Shown: positions 2,705 to 15,016 of the stretch, one piece after another | How the letters are laid out: every line of letters starts with the position of its first letter | How positions within the stretch are numbered: position 1 is the first letter of the stretch | NCBI GenBank assembly: GCA_028693885.1 | Contig: JAQUUM010000010.1 | Span: 1 to 16,485 of the forward strand | DNA: 16,485 bases | Direction: 5' to 3' | Source of the DNA: Bacilli bacterium | Lineage (GTDB): Bacteria > Bacillota_I > Bacilli_A > ML615J-28 > CAG-698 | Program-made: the position numbers and the translations under genes | Notes under the pieces: generated by a model | Told to the model about the DNA's origin: nothing | The model's input: only the letters and a program-made list of their open reading frames with translations | Database searches by the model: none

Positions 2705-4387
2705 ATGTATATTTCAAATGTTGAAAAATGGAAAAATTTTTCGGGTTTATTAGAAGAATTAAGAGAAGAATTGTCTAATATGAATGAAAAAGAGTTAGAG
2801 GATGCTTTTTACACTGACTTAGGTTTTGGCACAGGAGGCATGCGTGGTATAATTGGTGCTGGTACTAATAGAATGAATATTTATACACTAAGAAAAGCAA
2901 ATTATGGCTATGCAAAATTTATACTTAGTTTGAAAGTTAAAAATCCTTCTGTTGTAATAGCTTATGATTCTAGACATAAATCTAAGGAATTTGCTTTAGA
3001 ATCAGCTAAAGTAATGGGCACTTTAGGAATCAAAGCGTACTTATTCAATAAAATCACTCCTACTCCGGAATTGTCATTTGCTGTTAGATATTTAAAAGCA
3101 ACAGGAGGAATAGTAGTTACAGCTTCTCATAATCCTGCTAATTATAATGGTTATAAAATATATGATAGTGATGGTTGTCAACTTGTTCCTGATCTGGCCG
3201 ATCAAGTTATAGAAGAAATTTCAAATGCACCGGATGCTTTTGAAATATTTGTTGAAAATGAAAATGAATTAGTTAGTCAAAATATGGTTGAATATCTTGA
3301 TGATTTGATTGATAAAAAATATCTTGAAGCTGTAAAGTCAATTGCTGTATATCCTAAACAAAATAAAGAAGACTTTAAAGTGGTTTTTACTCCTCTTCAT
3401 GGTACTGCTGCATATTTAGGAAAGAAGTTGTTAAATGAAACAGGGTATAATGTATTTTGTGTTGAAGAGCAAATGGTCCCAGATCCTAATTTTACAACCG
3501 TAAAATCTCCAAATCCTGAGGTCATGAGTGCATTTGATTACGGTATTAAATTAGCTGAAAAGGAAAATGCAGATTTAGTTATAGCTACTGATCCAGATGC
3601 TGATAGAGTTGGACTAGCTGTTAATAATGAAGGAAAATATCAATTGTTAACAGGCAACCAAACAGGTGCATTACTACTTTATTATCTAACAAATAATAAA
3701 CCTTTACCAAAACAAGGTGTTGTCTTTAATACTATTGTTACATCTTCATTAGGAGCAGATATTGCAAAGTCTAAAGGATTAGAAGTAATCTCCACTCTAA
3801 CTGGATTTAAGTTTATTGGAGAACAAGCTAAATTGCTTGAAAATTCATCTAAAGAGTTTTTCTTTGGCTATGAAGAATCATATGGATATGTAGTAAAAGA
3901 TTTTGTTAGAGATAAAGATTCATTACAAGCGTTGCTATTATGTTCTGAAATGGCATGTTTTTATAAAAATAGCGGGAAAAATTTAATTCAGGTACTAGAA
4001 GAGATTTTTAATAAATTTGGTTACTATGTAGAAGATTTAGTTAATATAGCTCTTGAAGGAAAAGAAGGCGCTGATAAAATTGATGAAATACTTAATCATT
4101 TTAGAAAAATGGAGTTAAAACATATTCAAGGACTTGCTGTGCTAGCAAAAGAGGATTATTTAGAACAAAAAAGATTTAAAAATGGTGAAGTTACTAATAT
4201 ATCTTTACCAAAATCTAACGTATTAAAATATCTTTTAAATGATGGTAGTTGGTTTGTTTTGCGTCCAAGTGGAACTGAACCTAAAATGAAAATTTATGTT
4301 GGTACAAAAGATTCTTCTAAGGAAGAAGCTATTAAAAAAATTGCTAAAATTAAAGAAGCTGTTTTAGCAATAGTAAAGTCGGTGTAA
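2705..4387 (+). CDS. pgcA: Alpha-phosphoglucomutase / phosphomannomutase-type phosphohexomutase
   Basis: A 560-residue cytoplasmic enzyme of the alpha-D-phosphohexomutase superfamily, full length for the Firmicute PgcA group. It interconverts glucose 1-phosphate and glucose 6-phosphate via a phosphoserine. All four signature loops are present: TASHNP with catalytic Ser141, the Mg-binding DPDADR at 296-301, the sugar-specificity loop GYEES at 388-392, and the phosphate-binding RPSGTEPK at 520-527. The ATG has AGGAGG at 2695-2700, overlapping the previous stop codon, so it is very probably in one transcript with the metal exporter. Product glucose 1-phosphate normally feeds UDP-glucose, glycolipid or cell-surface polysaccharide synthesis. 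A dual glucose/mannose or ribose-phosphate specificity cannot be excluded. The symbol is by family resemblance. Confidence 0.92.
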   Translation: MYISNVEKWKNFSGLLEELREELSNMNEKELEDAFYTDLGFGTGGMRGIIGAGTNRMNIYTLRKANYGYAKFILSLKVKNPSVVIAYDSRHKSKEFALESAKVMGTLGIKAYLFNKITPTPELSFAVRYLKATGGIVVTASHNPANYNGYKIYDSDGCQLVPDLADQVIEEISNAPDAFEIFVENENELVSQNMVEYLDDLIDKKYLEAVKSIAVYPKQNKEDFKVVFTPLHGTAAYLGKKLLNETGYNVFCVEEQMVPDPNFTTVKSPNPEVMSAFDYGIKLAEKENADLVIATDPDADRVGLAVNNEGKYQLLTGNQTGALLLYYLTNNKPLPKQGVVFNTIVTSSLGADIAKSKGLEVISTLTGFKFIGEQAKLLENSSKEFFFGYEESYGYVVKDFVRDKDSLQALLLCSEMACFYKNSGKNLIQVLEEIFNKFGYYVEDLVNIALEGKEGADKIDEILNHFRKMELKHIQGLAVLAKEDYLEQKRFKNGEVTNISLPKSNVLKYLLNDGSWFVLRPSGTEPKMKIYVGTKDSSKEEAIKKIAKIKEAVLAIVKSV

Positions 4388-5885: not shown

Positions 5886-7865
5886 ATGATTAAATTAAAT
5901 AATATTTCTAAGTATTACCATAGTGAAGGGACTGTAGCATTAGGACTTAGAAAAATTAATTTAGAGTTAAATGTTGGAGAGTTTGTTGCTATTACTGGAG
6001 AAAGCGGTAGTGGTAAATCAACATTATTAAATGTAATTTCGGGGAATGATACATACGAAGAAGGTGAAATGTATATTAACGGTGAAGAAACTTCACATTT
6101 TATTGAAAGTGAATGGGAAAATTATCGTAGAAATTATATTGGTTTCATATTTCAAAATAACAATTTGATAGACAGTTATACTGTTTATGAAAATGTTTTA
6201 GCAGCGTTGATAGTTCAAGGAATTAATAAAAAGCTTAGAAGAATTAGGGCTAAGGAAATAATTGAAAGGGTTGGCTTAACTTCGCATTTAAAACATAAAG
6301 CGATTAAGTTATCAGGCGGACAAAAACAAAGATTGGCTATTGCTAGAGCTTTAGCAAAAGATGTTCCTATTATAGTCGCTGATGAGCCAACAGGAAATTT
6401 AGATAGCGAAAGTGGTAGTGAAATAATTAAGTTATTAAACGAAGTATCAAAAGACAAACTAGTCATTATAGTAACACATAATTTTGAGCAAACAAAGGAT
6501 TTTGTTTCTAGAAAAATAAGGCTATATGATGGCGAAGTTGTTGAAGATATTGAATTAAAAGATGTTACAAAAATGGATAAAATTACTGTAAATGAAAACC
6601 AAAATACAGTTATAAAAAAATCGATTTTATTTGGTTTATTAAATTTGAAGAGTCAGCCAGTTAGAACTTTGTTTCTTTTAATTGTCACATTAATAGTTAC
6701 TTTGTTTATATTTAATCTTTATGGAGAACATTTGATGTCGCAAGACAACTCTGGTGCATATTTATCTATGTTCAGTTCAGTCAATAATAACTATAAGGAA
6801 AGAATTATTGTATCAAAAAAAGACAAAACTGCTTTTACTAATGCTGATTATGAATATATCAATTCAATTTCTAAGGTTGATAGAGTAATAAAACAAGACT
6901 TAGCTTTGGATTGTAATACTAATATTTCTTTTTCCTCAGGTGATGAATATTATTATTTTGATGGGTATCCGTATCCTAATGAATACTTAAAAACTACTGA
7001 TTTGGAGTATGGAGTTTTACCAAATGGAATAAATGAAATTGTTATTAAGTCATCATTATATAGTGGTTATAAATACCTTTATCAACTGAATAAAGATATT
7101 AGTATGAAATTAACTACAAATAGTGGCCAAGAGCATATTGATGTAAAAATCGTAGGTTTCATAAATGAATCTGTAAATATAGATGTAATCTATGTTTCGT
7201 CTGAGTTATTAGACTATATTAACACTAAGCAAGAAACCGAAAATAGTGAAAATACAATAGAAGTATTTTTTTCGCCGTTTAGGTATTCAGGATTGGTTTC
7301 AATTGATACTTCAGAAAGTGTAATATACTATCAACATACAGTAGAAGCAAATTTTGAAGATATTAATGCTGTGATTAAGGTTTTGCTTAAAAATGGATAT
7401 TATGCTTTTTCTCCATATACAAGCATTAGTGACCCTTTTAGTAATATGGCAGCGTTATTTGTAGTTTTATCAAATGCTTTTTCAACTTTATCTACAATAT
7501 TTGGTATTTTTGTAATTTATTTTGTTGCATTTTTAATATTAAAATATTTCTTATTATTTAAGAAAAAAGATTATGCGATTTTAAAATCAATCGGAATTGA
7601 TCAAAACAGTATTAGAGTTATGAACTTTGTAGAATTATATTTTGCATTTTTAGTATCTTTTGTGTTGTTAATTCCGCTTTATTTTGTTTTATTAAAATCA
7701 AATGTAAACTCTAGTGGTTTTTTATTTTATAGTTTAACGTATTATAAGTGGTATCATTTTATTTTTCTATTACTAATAAATACATTAATCTGTATTTTAA
7801 TAGTTAGAAGGTATAATAAATTATTAATTAAAAATTCAATTTTAAGTAATATGAGGGTAGAGTAA
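5886..7865 (+). CDS. ABC transporter, fused ATPase and FtsX/MacB-like permease (first of pair)
   Basis: A 659-residue membrane protein. Residues 1-220 are a LolD/MacB-class ATPase with Walker A GESGSGKS (38-45), Q-loop Gln90, signature LSGGQ (142-146), Walker B IIVADE (162-167) and switch His198, so it looks catalytically complete. One membrane segment (~261-279) is followed by a large extracytoplasmic domain (~285-520) and three more segments (~530-557, 582-604, 621-640). This 1+3 layout is that of FtsX/MacB mechanotransmission transporters, which do not move substrate through a channel but drive extracytoplasmic events such as peptide extrusion, lipid release or hydrolase activation. The partner gene begins one base after its stop. 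No sensor kinase or accessory gene is adjacent, so the substrate is unknown; peptide or bacteriocin export or defence is a guess. Confidence 0.88.
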   Translation: MIKLNNISKYYHSEGTVALGLRKINLELNVGEFVAITGESGSGKSTLLNVISGNDTYEEGEMYINGEETSHFIESEWENYRRNYIGFIFQNNNLIDSYTVYENVLAALIVQGINKKLRRIRAKEIIERVGLTSHLKHKAIKLSGGQKQRLAIARALAKDVPIIVADEPTGNLDSESGSEIIKLLNEVSKDKLVIIVTHNFEQTKDFVSRKIRLYDGEVVEDIELKDVTKMDKITVNENQNTVIKKSILFGLLNLKSQPVRTLFLLIVTLIVTLFIFNLYGEHLMSQDNSGAYLSMFSSVNNNYKERIIVSKKDKTAFTNADYEYINSISKVDRVIKQDLALDCNTNISFSSGDEYYYFDGYPYPNEYLKTTDLEYGVLPNGINEIVIKSSLYSGYKYLYQLNKDISMKLTTNSGQEHIDVKIVGFINESVNIDVIYVSSELLDYINTKQETENSENTIEVFFSPFRYSGLVSIDTSESVIYYQHTVEANFEDINAVIKVLLKNGYYAFSPYTSISDPFSNMAALFVVLSNAFSTLSTIFGIFVIYFVAFLILKYFLLFKKKDYAILKSIGIDQNSIRVMNFVELYFAFLVSFVLLIPLYFVLLKSNVNSSGFLFYSLTYYKWYHFIFLLLINTLICILIVRRYNKLLIKNSILSNMRVE

Positions 7866-7866
7866 T

Positions 7867-10329
7867 ATGATAAAAACAATTAATTTAAATAAATATTATA
7901 ATGCTGGTAAGTCTAATGAGATACATGTAATTAATGATGTTAGCCTAGATTTTCCTGATACTGGCTTTGTTAGTTTGCTTGGGCCTTCAGGTTGTGGGAA
8001 AACAACATTATTAAATGCAATAAGTGGATTGGATAAAGTCAAATCGGGTAAAATTATTGTTGGTCAAATAGAGATGAAAAAATATAATTTTAATAAATGG
8101 GATGATATTAGAACTAAAAAAATAGGTTACATTTTTCAAAACTATTTATTATTACCTGAATTAAGCGTTTATCGTAATTTAGAGTTAGTATTGAAAATGT
8201 TAAACGTTCCAAATGATAAAATAGAAGAAAGAATTGAATATGCTTTAAAAGCAGTGAAGATGGAAAGGTTTAAAAAAAGAAGAGCTTCACAACTTTCAGG
8301 TGGACAAATGCAAAGAGTAGCAATCGCTAGGGCGCTTGTTAAAAGCCCTAAGGTTATAATTGCGGATGAACCTACAGGAAATTTAGACGAAAGCAATACT
8401 ACTCAAATCATGAATATTTTACGTAAAATATCTAGAGAATGCTTAGTTGTTTTAGTAACACATGAACCAAGACTAGCTAATTTTTATTCAGACAGAATTA
8501 TTAAGTTAGCTGATGGAAAAATAGTTGAAGATTATTCAAACAAAAGTTCTGATAGTTTTGAATTTTCTGAAGATAGAAATCTTTACTTGAAAGAATATAA
8601 TAAAGATGAAGTATTAAAAGAAAATTTAAATATTGAATATTTCTTTAAAGATAAACCAAAATCTACCAAAATTAAAATAATATATGAAAAAGATGTAATT
8701 TATATTAGTGCTGACAGTGAAAAGGCTAAAATTAAGTTTATTGATTCAGGAAATGAAATTAAAATTTTAGATCAAAAAAAGCCAACTATTAAAATTGAAG
8801 ATTTTGATGAATTTGATTATCATTTAGAAAAACTTCCTGAGAATAGTCTAAAGTCGGCGATTAAATTTAAAGAAGCATTTAAAATGGGTTTTCAACATTT
8901 GCTTTCTTTTTCTAGAAAACAAAAAATGTTTTTATTTGCATTTGCTTTAATTGCTATATTTGTTGTTATATCAGTTATTAATTTCTCTTCTTTGTATATA
9001 GTTGATAAAAAAGATTATGTATATAATGATAAAAATATAATTTCAATTGATTCTAAAGACATAGATGTTGATTATCAAAAATTGATGTTAATTAAATCCG
9101 AATTAGGAATAAGTGGTTATATTGATGGATTGTGTAACCCAAGTAATTATTTTGATGGAATAAAACTAGATTTCTTTTCTCAAACTGAGCATAAAATTTC
9201 AAAACTAACTAATGATGGTATGGAATTTGGTAATATTGTATTTTTAGATAATATAAATCCAAATGATATAAAATATGGTTCTATGCCAACTGATTATAAA
9301 GGTATAGTAATTGATAAATGGATTTTAGATGTAATGATGGAAAAAGGTGATTTATCTAATACTGGATTAGTTGATTATACTGATTTAATAGGCCAAAATA
9401 TATCTTTAGATTATTTATCTTCATCTGTTTTTTTAACAGATGATGGACTTTATTTTCAATTTCCAGTTGTAATTTCAGGCATATCAGATTGTGGAGGTCC
9501 TGTAGTTTTCATAGACAAAGAATTATTATACGTTACAGAATTGTTTGCTGATGAGGAAATCTTAGTTACCAGTAATAGTTTGAGGTTACCTGAAATAGAA
9601 CTAGCTGATAATGAAATTTATCTATCTGAAACACATGTTTTAAGTCATCCTGTTAATTCGACTTATACATTTCAAGGTGAAGATTATATTGTCAAAGGCC
9701 ATTTTTTATATGAATCAGAAGCAGAGAACTTGGATTATATAGTTAATGATGCGAATGTTGAAAAAATTTATATTAATTCTATTTTGAATAGGCAAAGTCC
9801 TAATAACAAAATAGGGATTAATTTTTATGCACCTAATGTGAAAATTGCAGAGCAAAAATTATTAGAAGAAGGAATTACTTTTTCCTTACCCTATGAAGAC
9901 GATATAAATACTTTTAACGAATCTAGAGCTTTAGATGTATCGGTATCGTTAACTACATTAGTATTTATGCTATCAGCATCAAGTGTAATTCTATATTTTT
10001 TGATGAGGTCTAGTGTAATGTTACGAATTAATCAAATAGGTACTTATAGAGCAATAGGTGCAAAAAAAAGAGATATGTATAAAATATTCTTTTCTGAGAT
10101 AGTTTTAATTACTTCAGTTAGTTCTTTAATTGGTTTTTTGTTTATATCATTAACTATTTGGAATGTTAGTCGAAATGTTGTGTTTAGCACTTTAATCACT
10201 TATCCTTGGTATGTGGCTTTGATAACGATTCTATTCATTTTTCTAGTAAATATTTTAGCTGGTTTGTTTCCGGTGCTTAGATTAATGAGATTAACACCTA
10301 CTCAAATAATTACCAAGTATGATATTTAA
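7867..10329 (+). CDS. ABC transporter, fused ATPase and FtsX-like permease with linker insert (second of pair)
   Basis: An 820-residue membrane protein with the same order as its neighbour. The ATPase has Walker A GPSGCGKT (39-46), Q-loop Gln91, LSGGQ (143-147), Walker B VIIADE (163-168) and His199. Between the ATPase and the first membrane segment (~354-372) lies an extra ~120-residue cytoplasmic stretch (~225-345), partly charged and partly predicted beta (repeated alternations such as IKIIYEKDVIYIS). A ~310-residue extracytoplasmic domain and three C-terminal segments (~694-715, 736-763, 781-802) follow, with the FtsX-type IGTYRAIGAKKRDM cytoplasmic turn. The start is one base after the previous stop, so the two are translated together and probably form a heterodimer with two working ATP sites. 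No terminator is seen after the stop. Substrate unknown. Confidence 0.87.
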   Translation: MIKTINLNKYYNAGKSNEIHVINDVSLDFPDTGFVSLLGPSGCGKTTLLNAISGLDKVKSGKIIVGQIEMKKYNFNKWDDIRTKKIGYIFQNYLLLPELSVYRNLELVLKMLNVPNDKIEERIEYALKAVKMERFKKRRASQLSGGQMQRVAIARALVKSPKVIIADEPTGNLDESNTTQIMNILRKISRECLVVLVTHEPRLANFYSDRIIKLADGKIVEDYSNKSSDSFEFSEDRNLYLKEYNKDEVLKENLNIEYFFKDKPKSTKIKIIYEKDVIYISADSEKAKIKFIDSGNEIKILDQKKPTIKIEDFDEFDYHLEKLPENSLKSAIKFKEAFKMGFQHLLSFSRKQKMFLFAFALIAIFVVISVINFSSLYIVDKKDYVYNDKNIISIDSKDIDVDYQKLMLIKSELGISGYIDGLCNPSNYFDGIKLDFFSQTEHKISKLTNDGMEFGNIVFLDNINPNDIKYGSMPTDYKGIVIDKWILDVMMEKGDLSNTGLVDYTDLIGQNISLDYLSSSVFLTDDGLYFQFPVVISGISDCGGPVVFIDKELLYVTELFADEEILVTSNSLRLPEIELADNEIYLSETHVLSHPVNSTYTFQGEDYIVKGHFLYESEAENLDYIVNDANVEKIYINSILNRQSPNNKIGINFYAPNVKIAEQKLLEEGITFSLPYEDDINTFNESRALDVSVSLTTLVFMLSASSVILYFLMRSSVMLRINQIGTYRAIGAKKRDMYKIFFSEIVLITSVSSLIGFLFISLTIWNVSRNVVFSTLITYPWYVALITILFIFLVNILAGLFPVLRLMRLTPTQIITKYDI
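9421..9443 (+). other. Perfect 9-bp hairpin inside the second ABC gene
   Basis: TCATCTGTT (9421-9429) and AACAGATGA (9435-9443) flank a TTTTT loop. It lies within codons for SSSVFLTDDG in the extracytoplasmic domain. No U-run follows, so it is not a standard terminator. It may be chance or an mRNA structure. Confidence 0.5.
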
Positions 10330-10332
10330 TAG

Positions 10333-10361
10333 TTGACATATGTCATAAACTGGTGTATAAT
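10333..10361 (+). promoter_or_regulatory. Consensus promoter of the orp-like operon
   Basis: TTGACA (10333-10338) and TATAAT (10356-10361) are exact sigma-A consensus boxes with a 17-bp spacer, only 4 bp after the upstream stop codon. AGGAGG at 10372-10377 sets the start at 10384. A promoter this strong usually needs repression, which fits the palindrome lying across its -35 box. Confidence 0.85.
10334..10345. promoter_or_regulatory. Candidate operator: 12-bp perfect palindrome over the -35 box
   Basis: TGACATATGTCA is a perfect inverted repeat covering most of the -35 hexamer and the start of the spacer. With its flanks it reads TTGAC-ATAT-GTCAT, close to the TTGAC-N4-GTCAA pattern bound by CRP/FNR-family regulators of the HcpR/FNR type. 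Binding here would block RNA polymerase. The regulator is not identified; part of the match is forced by the -35 consensus itself. Confidence 0.5.
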
Positions 10362-10383
10362 TTCAATATCTAGGAGGTAGATT

Positions 10384-10749
10384 ATGATTATTGCGATTCC
10401 AGTATCAGAAAAAAATTTAAAAGAAGATGTATGTGTTTCATTTGGTAGAGCCCCTTATTATTATGTTTTGGATTCTAATAAAGGCGAAGGTAGTTTTTTA
10501 AAAAACCCAGCAGTTGATCAACCTGGTGGAGCTGGTATTATGAGTTCTCAAATTTTAATAAATAATAAAGTGGAAGTTTTAATTACTAAAAGTTGTGGAG
10601 AAAACGCAGCTAATGTATTACGTGCAGCTAATGTAGAAATCTTAAAAGCTATAAAAGGGTCTTTAGAAGACAATTTAACCGCTTATAAAAAAAGCAGTTT
10701 AGAAAAGTTAATTGAAATACATCAAGGCTTTCATGGAAAACGCAGTTAA
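10384..10749 (+). CDS. NifX/ORP-like cofactor-binding protein (first)
   Basis: A 121-residue soluble protein of the dinitrogenase iron-molybdenum cofactor family (NifB C-terminal/NifX/orange protein, COG1433). Typical features are the MIIAIPVSE start, VSFGRAPYYYVLD (18-30), the glycine turn PGGAGI (47-52) and ITKSCGENAANVLRAANVEI (67-86). The family has an RNase H-like fold and carries metal-sulfur clusters, FeMo-co precursors in nitrogen fixers or a Mo-Cu-S cluster in Desulfovibrio ORP. Cys17 and Cys71 are possible ligands or redox residues. It opens a six-gene operon, and its end overlaps the next gene by 17 nt. No nitrogenase genes are in view, so a role in FeMo-co is unlikely. Which metal it binds is unknown. 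Confidence 0.85.
   Translation: MIIAIPVSEKNLKEDVCVSFGRAPYYYVLDSNKGEGSFLKNPAVDQPGGAGIMSSQILINNKVEVLITKSCGENAANVLRAANVEILKAIKGSLEDNLTAYKKSSLEKLIEIHQGFHGKRS
10724..10727 (+). promoter_or_regulatory. Ribosome site deciding the start of the first MinD/ferredoxin ATPase
   Basis: AAGG at 10724-10727, within the 3' end of the preceding gene, lies 5 nt before ATG 10733. The upstream in-frame TTG at 10712 would add seven residues and has no comparable site. Confidence 0.5.
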
Positions 10750-11578
10750 AAAAATTGCTGTTTTAAGTGGCAAAGGTGGGACTGGTAAAACTTTTATATC
10801 AGTAAATTTAGCTAGTATTATTGATAATGCAGCTTATATTGATTGTGATGTTGAAGAACCTAACGGAGATTTATTCTTCAAGTCTAAAAATATAGAAAAA
10901 CAAGAAGTATTTGTTAAAATACCAAAAGTAGATATGACTTTGTGTAACGGATGTCAGAAATGTGTAGATTTTTGTAAGTTTAATGCTTTGACTTATTTAC
11001 CTAATAAACTATTAATTTTTGATAAATTGTGTCATTCTTGTGGAGGATGTGTTCTGGTTTGTGATAAAAAAGCTTTAACCGAGATAAACAAAGAAATTGG
11101 AAACATTTATGTAGGTAAAAGTAGTGATGTTTTTGTTGTTAGTGGGAAATTGAATATAGGTGAAGCCACAGGGGTACCTATTATAAAACAACTTTTTAAA
11201 TATGAGTTACCTGTTAAAAATATTGTTGTTGATTGTCCTCCAGGTAGTTCTTGTTTAGTTATGGAAACAATAAAAGATGCAGATTATTGTTTGTTTGTTG
11301 TAGAACCCACGATTTTTGGACTTCATAATTTTAAAATGGTTTTAGAGTTAGTTAAGCTTTTTAATAAACCTTTTGGAGTAGTTATTAATAAATATTCAGA
11401 AGAAAGTGAAAATAATATTAAATATTTCTATGAAAAAAATATTAAAATTATTAAAAAGATAAAATATGATAAACTTATTGTTGAAATGAATTCAAGTGGA
11501 TTGATAGTATCTCGAATGTTTCCAGAATATAAATCTTTATTTACAGACATTTTCGAAGAAATTAAGAGGTTTATATAA
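10733..11578 (+). CDS. MinD-superfamily P-loop ATPase with inserted 2[4Fe-4S] ferredoxin domain (first)
   Basis: A 281-residue cytoplasmic protein of the COG1149 type. The deviant Walker A GKGGTGKT (13-20) keeps the signature Lys14 typical of dimeric MinD/Mrp/NifH-class ATPases, and DCPPG at 168-172 is switch II. A bacterial ferredoxin module is inserted at ~65-115: Cys71, 74, 77, 81 and Cys100, 103, 106, 110, both CxxCxxCxxxC, enough for two [4Fe-4S] clusters; the usual Pro after each fourth Cys is absent. The family is thought to couple ATP turnover to electron transfer or metal-cluster handling, with NifX/ORP proteins as partners. ATG 10733 is preferred over TTG 10712 because MENAVKKIAVLSGKGG puts the P-loop at normal distance. 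It overlaps the preceding gene by 17 nt and the next by 1 nt. Confidence 0.9.
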   Translation: MENAVKKIAVLSGKGGTGKTFISVNLASIIDNAAYIDCDVEEPNGDLFFKSKNIEKQEVFVKIPKVDMTLCNGCQKCVDFCKFNALTYLPNKLLIFDKLCHSCGGCVLVCDKKALTEINKEIGNIYVGKSSDVFVVSGKLNIGEATGVPIIKQLFKYELPVKNIVVDCPPGSSCLVMETIKDADYCLFVVEPTIFGLHNFKMVLELVKLFNKPFGVVINKYSEESENNIKYFYEKNIKIIKKIKYDKLIVEMNSSGLIVSRMFPEYKSLFTDIFEEIKRFI

Positions 11579-12441
11579 TGAAAAAAATATTAGTATTAAG
11601 CGGAAAAGGCGGGACCGGTAAAACAACTATATCTAGTGCTTTAATTAAATTATATAATATAAACGCATTTGCTGATTGCGATGTAGATGCTCCTAATTTA
11701 CATTTACTATTTAATGATTTCACTGATTATGAAGAAAGTAATTATTTTGGGTTAAAAAAAGCAGTAATAAATCAGGAAAAATGCATTTTATGTGGCTTAT
11801 GTTTAGAAAAGTGTAGATTTGACGCTATTAAATATGATAAAAGGTATAGTATTTTATTGCATGATTGTGAAGGTTGTGGAGTTTGTGAATATGTTTGTCC
11901 GGCCCAAGCAATAAGCATGAACCAATATGTTAATGGGTATTTAAGATTGTATAAAAATGAAGTTGTTTTTTCCACTGCAACTTTAAAAATGGGAAGTGGA
12001 ACTACAGGTATGCTTGTAACAAAGGTCAAAAAACAGTTATTTGATAATGTTTCAGAAAAGGAAATTGCTTGTATAATTGATGGTTCTCCTGGTATAGGTT
12101 GCCCTGTAATAGCTTCGTTGAGTGGTGTTGATTATGCATTATTAGTTACTGAGCCTTCTATTTCAGGGATATCCGATTTAAAAAGAATAGTTAAAGTTTC
12201 AAAAAGTTTTAATACGAAAATAATGGTTTGTATTAATAGATATGATGAGAATGAAGAAATAACTAATAGAATTAAAGAATATTGTAATGAAGAAAATATT
12301 TTTGTTGTTGGAGAAATTCCTTTTGATTCTAAAGTGATTGAATATTTGAATATGGGGAAAAGTTTTATTGATTTTGATGGCAAAGCAAGTATAGCTACTA
12401 AAAATATGTTTGAAATTTTAATTAAGAATGTAGGAATTTAA
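11578..12441 (+). CDS. MinD-superfamily P-loop ATPase with inserted 2[4Fe-4S] ferredoxin domain (second)
   Basis: A 287-residue paralogue of the preceding gene. GKGGTGKT (9-16) is the deviant Walker A with Lys10, and IDGSPGIGCP (167-176) is the switch II region, with an extra Cys175. The ferredoxin insert has Cys69, 72, 75, 79 and Cys97, 100, 103, 107, the last followed by Pro. Two such ATPases in a row are the rule in this gene family's clusters (as in the Desulfovibrio orp operon), and they probably form a heterodimer that supplies electrons or a conformational switch to a NifX/ORP partner. Its ATG overlaps the previous TAA (TAATG), and AAGAGG at 11564-11569 supports the start. The two copies are clearly diverged, so duplication is old. 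Confidence 0.9.
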   Translation: MKKILVLSGKGGTGKTTISSALIKLYNINAFADCDVDAPNLHLLFNDFTDYEESNYFGLKKAVINQEKCILCGLCLEKCRFDAIKYDKRYSILLHDCEGCGVCEYVCPAQAISMNQYVNGYLRLYKNEVVFSTATLKMGSGTTGMLVTKVKKQLFDNVSEKEIACIIDGSPGIGCPVIASLSGVDYALLVTEPSISGISDLKRIVKVSKSFNTKIMVCINRYDENEEITNRIKEYCNEENIFVVGEIPFDSKVIEYLNMGKSFIDFDGKASIATKNMFEILIKNVGI

Positions 12442-12442
12442 A

Positions 12443-13279
12443 ATGAAAATAACTACTTTAATTGAAAATACTAAAATTGAAGCTGCTTTATATGAAGAAC
12501 ATGGCTTAAGTTTCTATATAGAGGCTAATGGTAAAAAAATATTGTTTGATTTAGGCCAGGGAGAAAGTTTTTTGCATAATGCAAAATACTTAAAAAAAGA
12601 TATTGGAAATGTAGATTTTGTTTATATATCTCATGGACACTATGATCATGGTGGTGGATTAGATAGTTTTTTAAAAAATAATAGCAAAGCAAAAGTGTAT
12701 TTAAACTCAAATTCGTTTAACGATTTTTATTCTAATAGAAATGGAATAAAACATTATATTGGTTTAAAAAAAGAATTAATTAATAATGAAAGAATAGTAT
12801 TATCTAAAAATGATTATGAAATTTATAACGGCTTTAGCTCGTTTTGCGATGTAGAAATTAAAGATATGTTCCCTAGTACAAATAAAAATTTATTTGAGTT
12901 GGTTGATAATTGTTATATAAATGATACCTTCAAACATGAGCAATATTTAGTCATAAGAGAAAATGATAAATATATATTATTTTCGGGATGTTCTCATAGA
13001 GGGATTATAAATATAGTTGAAGGTTTTTATAAGAAGTTTGGTTTTTATCCTAATGTAGTAGTTGGTGGATTCCACTTATACAATAAATCTAATAACGAGT
13101 ATGAATCGGATAGTAATATAATTACTTTAGCCAATTACTTAATAAAAACTAATGCAACGTATTATACAGGCCATTGTACAGGATTGTTAGCTTACAAAAA
13201 ATTAAAAGATAAAATGAAAGAAAAAATAAATTACATTTCTACAGGTAGTGTAATAGAAATAGAGGTAAAAAATGAGTGA
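12443..13279 (+). CDS. Metallo-beta-lactamase-fold hydrolase, COG1237 type
   Basis: A 278-residue cytoplasmic protein with the MBL fold. SHGHYDHGGG at 63-72 is the metal motif HxHxDH (His64, His66, Asp68, His69). Further conserved positions are His165 (KHEQ), His185 (GCSHRGI), His211 (GGFHLY) and a late TGHCTG, which match the COG1237 subgroup related to MJ0301 and methanopterin-linked phosphate synthase annotations. Its substrate in bacteria is not established. It begins one base after the second ATPase and its TGA overlaps the next ATG by 8 nt, so it is a true operon member. A role in hydrolysing or oxidising a small molecule linked to metal-cluster chemistry is inference only. It shows no rubredoxin or flavodoxin domain, so it is not a flavodiiron protein. 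Confidence 0.85.
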   Translation: MKITTLIENTKIEAALYEEHGLSFYIEANGKKILFDLGQGESFLHNAKYLKKDIGNVDFVYISHGHYDHGGGLDSFLKNNSKAKVYLNSNSFNDFYSNRNGIKHYIGLKKELINNERIVLSKNDYEIYNGFSSFCDVEIKDMFPSTNKNLFELVDNCYINDTFKHEQYLVIRENDKYILFSGCSHRGIINIVEGFYKKFGFYPNVVVGGFHLYNKSNNEYESDSNIITLANYLIKTNATYYTGHCTGLLAYKKLKDKMKEKINYISTGSVIEIEVKNE

Positions 13280-14102
13280 CAAATGTAATAATGATTGTTC
13301 AAGCTGTTCTGAAGATTGTGATGATAGGAAAGAAAAAAATGATTTTTCGGAAAAACCCCATAATCTTAGTAAAATTAAAAAAGTTATCGGTATAGTTAGT
13401 GGTAAAGGAGGAGTAGGTAAATCACTAGTTACTTCGCTATTAGCTGTTTATGCATGTAAAAGGGGTTTTAAAACAGCGATTTTGGATGCTGATATTACAG
13501 GGCCATCGATTCCAAAAGCATTTGGCTTAAAAGAAAAAGCTTTAGGAACTAAAGATGGATTATATCCTATAAAAACCAAAACGGGTATAAGTGTTATGTC
13601 TGTTAATTTCTTGTTAGAAAATGAAACAGATCCAGTTGTTTGGAGGGGGCCATTAATAGCTGGTGCTGTAAAACAATTTTGGACAGATGTTATTTGGGAA
13701 AACATTGATATAATGTTTATAGATATGCCGCCCGGGACAGGGGATGTACCTTTAACTGTTTTTCAATCTATTAAGGTTGATGGAATAGTTATAGTTACTT
13801 CACCTCAGGAATTAGTTAATATGATTGTTGCAAAAGCTACAAAAATGGCTAATATGATGAAAATACCTATTATAGGAATAGTTGAGAATATGTCTTTTTT
13901 CGAATGCCCTAATTGTTTAGAAAAGCATAATATATTTGGAGAAAGCAAGATAGAAGAAATTGCGAAAAGTTATGAAATTGATATAATTGAAAAAATGCCA
14001 ATAGATTCTAAAATTTCAAAGCTTTGTGATCAAGGAATGATAGAAAATATAGAAGAAGAATATTTAGATGATTTGATTTTAAATATAGGAGAAAATATAT
14101 GA
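13272..14102 (+). CDS. mrp: Mrp/NBP35-family Fe-S cluster carrier ATPase
   Basis: A 276-residue cytoplasmic P-loop protein. The deviant Walker A GKGGVGKS (44-51), DADITGPSIP (72-81), DMPPGTGD switch II (151-158) and CPNC (212-215) are hallmarks of Mrp/ApbC/NBP35, which bind a [4Fe-4S] cluster between two subunits at the CxxC and pass it to target proteins. An N-terminal tail carries Cys5, 9, 12 and 16 (CxxxCxxCxxxC), a possible second cluster site also seen in anaerobe homologues. The downstream NifX/ORP-like gene overlaps it by 4 nt (ATGA). In sulfate reducers the same two domains are fused as MrpORP, so this protein probably loads or works with that neighbour. AGAGG at 13261-13265 supports the start. 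Confidence 0.92.
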   Translation: MSDKCNNDCSSCSEDCDDRKEKNDFSEKPHNLSKIKKVIGIVSGKGGVGKSLVTSLLAVYACKRGFKTAILDADITGPSIPKAFGLKEKALGTKDGLYPIKTKTGISVMSVNFLLENETDPVVWRGPLIAGAVKQFWTDVIWENIDIMFIDMPPGTGDVPLTVFQSIKVDGIVIVTSPQELVNMIVAKATKMANMMKIPIIGIVENMSFFECPNCLEKHNIFGESKIEEIAKSYEIDIIEKMPIDSKISKLCDQGMIENIEEEYLDDLILNIGENI

Positions 14103-14437
14103 AAATAGCAGTAGCGGTTGAAAATAATATAGTATCTGAACATTTTGGTCATTGTGAAAATTTTTGTTTTTTTTATATTGAGAACAACAAAATTATAAGT
14201 AGAGAAAAGGTTGCAAATCCTGGTCATAAACCAGGTTTTCTACCTTTATTTTTAAAAGAAAAAGGCATAAATTTAATTATAGCAGGTGGAATGGGTGGAG
14301 GTGCAGTCCAACTTTTTATAGATAACGATATAGAAGTAATAACAGGTGTTGTTGGAGACGTAGAAGAGGTAATAAATAAATTCCTAAAGAAAGAACTAGT
14401 TTACACAAATAAGATTTGCGATAGCCATAATCATTAA
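14099..14437 (+). CDS. NifX/ORP-like cofactor-binding protein (second)
   Basis: A 112-residue soluble protein of the same family as the first gene of the operon but of a different subgroup. It has EHFGHCENF (14-22), NPGHKPGFLP (40-49) and the glycine-rich IIAGGMGGGAV (60-70), and it ends in a Cys/His tail, CDSHNH (Cys107, His110, His112). Cys19, Cys23, His18, His43 and the tail are plausible metal or cluster ligands. This subgroup is the kind found fused to the C-terminus of Mrp in MrpORP proteins; here it is free-standing with a 4-nt overlap on mrp. AGGAGA at 14087-14092 supports the start. It is the last gene before the terminator. The metal bound is unknown. Confidence 0.86.
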   Translation: MKIAVAVENNIVSEHFGHCENFCFFYIENNKIISREKVANPGHKPGFLPLFLKEKGINLIIAGGMGGGAVQLFIDNDIEVITGVVGDVEEVINKFLKKELVYTNKICDSHNH

Positions 14438-14462
14438 AAAAAAGACTTTAGTCTTTTTTTTT
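14436..14462. terminator. Terminator of the orp-like operon
   Basis: An A-run and GAC (14436-14446) pair with GTC and a T-run (14451-14462) around a TTTA loop, starting in the stop codon of the last gene. The symmetrical A/T runs would let it work in both directions, but no gene points at it from the right. The GC part of the stem is only three pairs, so its strength is moderate. Confidence 0.75.
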
Positions 14463-14463
14463 A

Positions 14464-14492
14464 TTGACTTAACTACAATGGAAATATATAAT
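14464..14492 (+). promoter_or_regulatory. Promoter of the MarR-ABC operon
   Basis: TTGACT (14464-14469) and TATAAT (14487-14492) are 17 bp apart, immediately after the preceding terminator. A 45-bp leader follows before the start codon at 14537. Confidence 0.82.
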
Positions 14493-14536: not shown

Positions 14537-15016
14537 ATGTTTGAAAAAATCAGTTCTAGTTTAGGGAAGATAATTTTAATGAAAAAGGTGATGATAAATA
14601 ATATATTTAAGGAAACGAATTTATATTATGGACAGCACCCAATACTTGAAATACTAAATAAAAATAATGGATCTACTCAAATAGAAATAGCTGATAAATT
14701 AGGAGTTTCAGCTGCGAGTATTGCCCTTTCTACTAAAAGAATGGAAAAAAATGGTTTGCTATGTAAAAAAATAGATGAAAAAAATTTGCGTTGTAAAAAG
14801 CTTTTTATAACTGATAAAGGTATAGCAAGTCTAGAGAAAATTCATAAAGAGATTAAAAAAATAGATGACAAAATGTTTAATGGATTTAGCAAAGATGAAA
14901 TAAATAAATTTAATTTTTTTCTTGATAAAATAATGAAAAATGTTTTAGAAGATGGAGAATTTGATTTAAAGGTTGAAAACATTATAAAAACAATGAATAT
15001 TAATATGGAGGAATAA
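14537..15016 (+). CDS. MarR-family transcriptional regulator
   Basis: A 159-residue winged-helix DNA-binding protein, normal for the family. The core is QHPILEIL (33-40), then helix-turn-helix QIEIADKLGVSAASIALSTKRME (about 48-70) with the recognition helix at ~58-71. The wing DEKNLRCKKLFITDKG (80-95) corresponds to the conserved D-x-R...L-T-x-x-G of MarR. N- and C-terminal helices would form the dimer interface. It is the first gene of an operon with an ABC exporter starting one base after its stop, the classic arrangement in which the repressor is released by the exporter's substrate. AAAGGAGG at 14525-14532 sets the start. Cys76 and Cys86 could in principle make it redox-sensitive, but this is speculation. 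Confidence 0.9.
   Translation: MFEKISSSLGKIILMKKVMINNIFKETNLYYGQHPILEILNKNNGSTQIEIADKLGVSAASIALSTKRMEKNGLLCKKIDEKNLRCKKLFITDKGIASLEKIHKEIKKIDDKMFNGFSKDEINKFNFFLDKIMKNVLEDGEFDLKVENIIKTMNINMEE

Follow-up and report, generated by a model that had tools for sequence, protein, structure and literature searches.

The window, meaning the whole 16,485-nucleotide stretch analysed here, comes from contig JAQUUM010000010.1 of a Bacilli bacterium assembly (GCA_028693885.1; here G000) comprising 207 contigs (1,338,922 bases; completeness 86.5%). It contains a compact operon of six genes, labelled A to F, encoding two NifX/orange protein (ORP)-type proteins, two ferredoxin ATPases, an MBL-fold protein and an Mrp ATPase (Table 1; other genomes and loci carry G and L numbers). 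A first-pass annotation made from the letters alone had described six genes with these domains and tightly packed junctions. All six are plus-strand open reading frames (ORFs); Pfam and NF041136 matches confirmed the domains, and the ORF coordinates the packing: A/B, B/C, D/E and E/F overlap (E/F by 4 nt), and C and D are separated by 1 nt. The ORF of gene B also contains an in-frame ATG at 10733. The letters TTGACATATGTCAT occupy positions 10333–10346 and span a palindrome on the promoter. The annotation had further placed the operon between one promoter and one terminator, which fits the sequence as regards the consensus promoter and a putative terminator hairpin behind F (the stretch 14425–14470 folds at −9.6 kcal/mol, z −3.5); the terminator scan did not include the hairpin among its listed sites.

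Table 1. Positions of the operon genes and associated signals in the window.
Feature	Position	Strand	Basis
Promoter TTGACA-17-TATAAT, both hexamers consensus (12/12)	10333..10361	+	Promoter scan
Putative 12-bp palindromic operator TGACATATGTCA, overlapping the -35	10334..10345	.	Exact copies at only two places in the assembly; conservation in related operons
Ribosome-binding site AGGAGGT	10372..10378	+	Sequence
Gene A, NifX/ORP-type DiNase protein, 121 aa	10384..10749	+	PF02579, 71.8 bits
Gene B, MinD-type (CbiA-type) ATPase with inserted two-cluster ferredoxin	10712..11578	+	Domain matches
Gene C, second MinD-type (CbiA-type) ATPase with inserted two-cluster ferredoxin	11578..12441	+	Domain matches
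Gene D, MBL-fold metallohydrolase	12443..13279	+	PF00753
Gene E, Mrp/NBP35 ATPase, P-loop half of split MrpORP	13272..14102	+	PF10609, 290.9 bits; NF041136, 327.5 bits
Gene F, NifX/ORP-type protein, DiNase half of split MrpORP	14099..14437	+	PF02579; NF041136, 111 bits
Rho-independent terminator-like hairpin, 11-bp A-T-rich stem	14436..14461	+	Folding

Judged by its domains, the operon is of the ORP/MrpORP kind, with E and F together constituting a split MrpORP. E aligns to positions 1–232 and F to positions 265–365 of the MrpORP model NF041136; the P-loop and DiNase domains lie in separate chains, both scoring below the 450-bit cut-off for a one-chain MrpORP. E has four N-terminal Cys, its GKGGVGKS and CPNC motifs place it with the Mrp/NBP35 ATPases, and the operon has the constituents by which ORP operons are recognised, namely one-domain NifX proteins, an ATPase pair with two ferredoxin motifs each, and MrpORP as two adjoining genes. 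The Desulfovibrio vulgaris ORP complex (Orp3, Orp4, Orp5, Orp8, and MrpORP) likewise comprises a NifX-type protein, two MinD-type two-ferredoxin ATPases, Mrp, and a second DiNase domain. By contrast, MrpORP is split over two genes here, an MBL gene is present, Mo genes were not found, and the first Cys of the published MrpORP motif CXHFGHCE (NF041136) is Ser in the window's F. The available text of PMC3897727 describes two sigma-54 operons under DVU2106 in D. vulgaris, whereas the operon in the window has one consensus sigma-70 promoter with a palindrome. No activator domain was detected in the window proteins scanned, a scan that did not extend to -24/-12 motifs. The system is of a known but poorly understood kind, and its new parts are the regulatory layer and a clearer mechanistic hypothesis.

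To survey the neighbourhood, we used loci retrieved through C and listed the best 80 of 307 (L001, L002, and L012–L014 were left out of this work). B was present in 77 of the 80 and lay immediately upstream of C in 66; in the three loci without B, C begins no more than 256 nt from the contig end. A NifX-type ORF was found in 73, Mrp in 34, DUF134 in 37, and, by models built here, a DUF5320-like ORF in 44. Recurrence of the neighbourhood in these loci, which span Bacillota, other bacterial phyla, and archaea, argues that the gene set is not a chance assembly. The alternative raised in the first-pass annotation, a collection of unrelated stand-alone homologues, was not what the search returned, and the proposed kinship to the Desulfovibrio orp system holds for the NifX proteins, the paired ferredoxin ATPases, the split MrpORP, and the conserved neighbourhood. 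A tree of 48 of the B+C pairs, built by a quick method, placed the window inside a 26-row Bacillota-type clade (SH-aLRT 100); because the tree resolved no close neighbours for the window and did not group the carriers of its own family, it did not discriminate between origin of the operon by transfer and loss elsewhere. Within this clade, L015, L019, and L022 have a fused MrpORP behind C; in L027 and the window, Mrp and NifX are separate neighbouring genes. Only the window showed the full order of six separate genes A-B-C-D-E-F. At positions 10680–11400 of L096 (G048), stops interrupt the Mrp region that separates D from F, and the NifX frame behind it is open; this may be a decayed gene or, alternatively, an assembly fault.

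The palindrome TGACATATGTCA, a putative operator, occurs exactly at only two sites in the 1.34-Mb assembly, where 0.12 would be expected from the base composition of the window. The second exact site lies on another contig (C142), alongside a one-mismatch copy, before an 80-aa DUF5320 ORF whose promoter has the same layout as that of the operon, with the -35 TTGACA inside the box and 17 bp from TATAAT. We scanned up to 1.6 kb upstream of B in the 26 operons of the clade, the window included, for the 14-mer TTGACATATGTCAA (L103–L110, from the NifH search, were left out of the operator scans). The word was present with at most one mismatch in 10 operons, at most two in 21, and at most three in 25. 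In the same operons, 199 shuffled palindromes gave means of 0.00, 0.19, and 2.26 at these three thresholds (maxima 0, 4, and 12), and 200 words that keep TTGACA gave 0.03, 0.40, and 3.52 (maxima 3, 10, and 18, which come from words close to the operator). The box forms the -35 of a TATAAT-like -10 in 23 of the 26, no such coupled box being found by the rule used in L028, L029, and L032; the spacer to the -10 is 16 in most clade operons and 17 in the window, and a second copy follows 32–39 bp downstream in 15 of the 23. At random places, 0.86 would be expected. Where upstream DNA sufficed (73 loci, window excluded), the box was found with at most one mismatch in 10 and at most two in 22 (controls, 0.04 and 0.64). 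Our literature search found nothing on the 14-mer or the 12-mer in this sense; the one match was an Escherichia coli motif paper.

Two regulatory candidates were rejected. The first was a wide Crp/Fnr-like TTGAC-N4-GTCAA regulon in the own genome, for which 30 sites with at most one mismatch compare with 47 for the reversed control; this half-site pattern is thus not enriched, and the informative word is the ATAT-centred one alone. Individual sites in G000 include the exact TTGAC-N4-GTCAA match TTGACGTTAGTCAA (C116:4613–4626) and TGACAAATGTCA (C113:8687–8698), the latter directly before a gene for a secreted-looking protein. The second was the MarR gene at 14537 as regulator of the operon: the palindrome is absent upstream of it, the window's single match with at most two mismatches lying elsewhere, and the gene more likely belongs with the adjoining downstream ABC transporter gene.

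Eight ferredoxin-type Cys in each of the two ATPases are invariant in all 84 B and all 89 C sequences, which argues for four 4Fe-4S sites in the operon, the number the first-pass annotation had counted. One additional Cys is equally invariant, Cys181 of B (84/84) and Cys175 of C (89/89), and aligns with the NifH ligand Cys132 (the NifH ligands are Cys97 and Cys132, two per subunit). B and C thus match one ligand column rather than the two Cys ligands per subunit that define the NifH family, and PF00142 was absent from the Pfam matches of the window proteins. Compared with the deviant-Walker ATPases NifH, Nbp35-Cfd1, and ApbC, the pair is set apart by the inserted ferredoxin and by the single NifH ligand, and neither B nor C has the CxxC of Mrp. 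The fold scores of a structure model of C (predicted local distance difference test, 92.4) tie among ApbC, NifH, and MinD.

We lean towards reading the operon as a repressor-controlled, inducible unit whose ferredoxin ATPases probably load and reduce iron-sulfur, and not molybdenum-copper (Mo-Cu), clusters on the NifX carriers. The ferredoxin sites of B and C would receive their 4Fe-4S clusters from Mrp (E); the available text of PMC6345978 reports such transfer from Desulfovibrio MrpORP to the ferredoxin sites of Orp3-Orp4 in vitro. B and C are predicted to form a NifH- or Nbp35/Cfd1-like pair with the switch-II Cys at the interface, where it could link ATP hydrolysis to the passage of electrons or clusters from the ferredoxin sites to A and F. 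The position of the operator over the -35, in many cases followed by another copy 32–39 bp further on, would suit repression that is lifted by a metal-sulfide or redox signal. A published response may belong here: according to the available text of PMC7798349, the genes most raised by berberine in Clostridium hiranonis in mouse cecum (log2 fold change 4.4 to 2.36) form a six-ORF polycistron described as HTH, chaperone, ATPase1, ATPase2, MBL hydrolase, and dinitrogenase iron-molybdenum cofactor. Likened by description only, this order fits DUF134-A-B-C-D-F; the same text names no Mrp and does not recognise the likeness to orp. By this analogy, the berberine response fits an inducible, repressor-controlled unit. 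In the available text of PMC11497831 and PMC6616478, a DiNase gene is merely listed as down-regulated, and a broad literature search found no paper that joins two of three ORP-ATPase phrases.

To identify partners of the system, we used a set of 60 genomes including the own genome, nine of which carry the B+C pair (carriers). DUF134 was present in eight of the nine carriers and in 3 of the 51 others, one of these below cut-off (Fisher p 5.5e-7, kinship ignored), and DUF5320 in 6/9 versus 0/51 (Fisher p 1.7e-6, kinship ignored). In the eight carriers, the DUF134 gene immediately precedes A or, in G053 and G056, forms a fusion with NifX there. DUF134 flanks 22 of 25 related operons, and all nine loci checked, from the 43 listed loci without an adjoining DUF134, had the gene in trans. 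Among the fusions, six of ten NifX-DUF5320 and two of four DUF134-NifX proteins were sent to Pfam, which confirmed DUF134-NifX in L101 and L121. The L121 fusion (3315–4129, G030) is a stand-alone gene whose ATG follows the box by 36 bp, and its genome lacks B and C; by eye, the fusion adjoins a chromate-transporter-like gene. A repressor is predicted on the palindrome, with DUF134 its likely binder in the relatives. Binding of the box by a Crp/Fnr-type regulator instead is possible and, in our estimate, improbable. TTGAC-N4-GTCAA presumably resembles Crp/Fnr-type sites, the own genome keeps the box with DUF134 missing, and a cNMP-binding or Crp-type gene adjoins DUF134 in two genomes (L120, below the Pfam cut-off, and L130, above it), but the position of DUF134 beside most related operons and the boxed stand-alone fusion point to DUF134. 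At L120 (3–1316, G026), a two-mismatch box separates DUF134 and the cNMP-binding-type protein from the thioredoxin and peroxiredoxin-like genes that they face, and no B/C pair was found in that genome. At L130 (752–1782, G068), the neighbour of DUF134 is a Crp-type regulator.

The boxed DUF5320 gene of the own genome (L111; contig C142, 484–726, minus strand) scores 54.6 bits against a cut-off of 27 and has two operator copies. Its neighbours are malic enzymes, a flavin reductase-like protein, a lactate racemase-like protein, and Ldh_2. DUF5320 is likewise detached in G019, where it keeps two boxes, and distant DUF5320 genes of other genomes with a box were found at L126, L129, and L131. Ten ORFs are NifX-DUF5320 fusions by the models built here, of which four of the six submitted to Pfam were above cut-off and two below. 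Residues 21–70 of DUF5320 contain a median of 26% Gly, 14% Arg+Lys, and 16% aromatic residues (32 ORFs). With this Gly/Arg/aromatic-rich composition and a helical end, DUF5320 may act in trans on A, as a counterpart of the tail found fused to the same NifX protein in other organisms. Among the papers listed for DUF134 or DUF5320, judged by titles and abstract openings, none concerned the ORP system. The composition and the fusions would also fit IssA-like iron-sulfide storage or detoxification, in which a thioferrate-like polymer nucleated by NifX would be wrapped by DUF5320 and released or reduced by the ATPases. IssA is described in the available text of PMC5524996 as a NifX-domain protein with a Gly/aromatic/cationic tail. 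That tail is comparable to DUF5320; here, by contrast, it is a separate gene. A and F end shortly after the NifX domain, so that neither is a one-chain IssA, low-complexity likeness proves little, and two of the six tested fusions fell below cut-off; we consider this alternative rather unlikely.

A search for molybdenum genes bears on the Mo-Cu chemistry mentioned in the first-pass annotation. ModA passed its cut-off in 0 of the 60 genomes (9 of 14 control genomes were positive; no search was made for TupA-type or unspecific Mo uptake), so that no carrier has a recognised ModA. Searches for MoeA, SufBD, and nitrogenase covered the nine carriers; SufBD was present in all nine, and MoeA_N was absent from seven, including the own genome and the 99%-complete G053. 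Nitrogenase component 1 was not found in the whole own assembly, one match being below cut-off, which extends to the genome what the first-pass annotation had noted for its fragment. Because neither ModA nor MoeA was found in the own genome and seven of nine carriers lack MoeA, an Mo-Cu cluster is unlikely in this system, and Mo-Cu chemistry was not borne out. The corresponding alternative, an orange-protein system as in Desulfovibrio with A as an ORP holding a molybdenum-copper sulfide cluster and the rest serving A, has in its favour that the protein kinds are the same and that A has recognisable similarity to ORP (2wfb, E 2.7e-4); the Orp8 Mo-Cu cluster is described in the available text of PMC6345978. 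We nevertheless hold it to be quite improbable, since the Mo genes are missing as described, A is far closer to MTH1175 (1eo1, E 1.8e-17; its nearest solved relative), and F has no match to 2wfb at E 0.1. Least probable of all is a cell-positioning system, in which the MinD/ParA-like ATPases would site the septum or a complex at the pole and the metal centres would act as sensors. In its favour, Foldseek ranks MinD first (22–26% identical), septum positioning was proposed by the Desulfovibrio authors as putative or as a hypothesis in the text available, and polar MrpORP was observed in Desulfovibrio (PMC6345978, available text). Against it, the classification of the operon and the 80 loci showed no division gene (individual division genes were not looked for), the invariant ferredoxin and switch-II Cys point to cluster chemistry, and the fold scores tie with ApbC and NifH. 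The link to cell division mentioned in the first-pass annotation found no support here.

Several observations weigh against the iron-sulfur reading that we favour and its regulatory part. Two further one-mismatch sites in the own assembly precede genes without an evident link (a secreted protein and an S-adenosylmethionine decarboxylase), and the reversed control word also has two sites there. With at most two mismatches in just 22 of 73 loci, the box is mainly a feature of the Bacillota-type clade and mostly absent beyond it. The co-occurrence counts overstate significance because relatives are not independent. No DUF134 match was obtained in G000 (86.5% complete), where the gene is either unassembled or replaced; of eight distant DUF134 loci, three are boxed (before DUF5320) and five have no box at two mismatches or fewer, so that DUF134 is a candidate binder only. 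The second NifH ligand, Cys97, has no counterpart in B or C, which have no invariant Cys between ferredoxin and Walker B, and sequence identity favours MinD over NifH. MoeA_N is present in two of the nine carriers (G048 and G056), no reaction is assigned to the MBL step (D), and the roles of A to F are proposals made from sequence.

A wider joint reading, which we offer as tentative and rather less than probable, is that of an Mo-independent iron-sulfide regulon. DUF134, at times fused to a NifX sensor domain of its own, would be the cluster-sensing repressor of TTGACATATGTCAA; DUF5320 would be a detachable IssA-like tail binding anionic iron-sulfide on the NifX carriers; and two NifH-like ferredoxin ATPases, each with a single interface Cys, would charge or discharge the carriers with ATP. 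In the own genome, the operon would have been broken up, with DUF5320 moved, DUF134 vanished, and the shared operator holding the unit together.

Among the remaining features of the NifX proteins, F carries SEHFGHCE and a C-terminal CDSH; in 21 F-type sequences, HFG and the next Cys19 are invariant and 20 retain a Cys and a His at the C-terminus, the tail being shorter in the window's F than in the others. Two C-terminal His are kept in 23 of 24 A-type sequences. D matches 2p4z (E 1.1e-39) and TM1679 (3h3e, E 2.1e-21). Two large ABC transporter proteins with an N-terminal ATPase, the second with an FtsX domain, adjoin the operon upstream (5886–10329), and a cation efflux (CDF) protein is encoded at 1518–2696. 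A separate promoter-like site (11/12) lies at 14464–14492 between F and the MarR-type regulator gene, which is followed by an ABC exporter gene running off the contig (14537–16485). The closest named relatives of a phospho-sugar mutase near the operon are metagenome-assembled genomes named 'Bacilli bacterium' (best identity 83%).

Beyond the first-pass annotation, the analysis adds the operator, the distant boxed DUF5320 gene, DUF134 in most relatives, and the NifH-like Cys of both ATPases. ORP-type operons are widespread among anaerobes, and the Mo-Cu question can be put to the test in carriers that lack recognisable Mo genes. The shared box ties DUF134 and DUF5320 to the ORP system and would give a predicted role to two unstudied families, and the conserved operator offers a route to the full regulon, the regulator, and the inducing signal in culturable Anaerovirgula, Clostridium, Enterocloster, and Bacillus marasmi.

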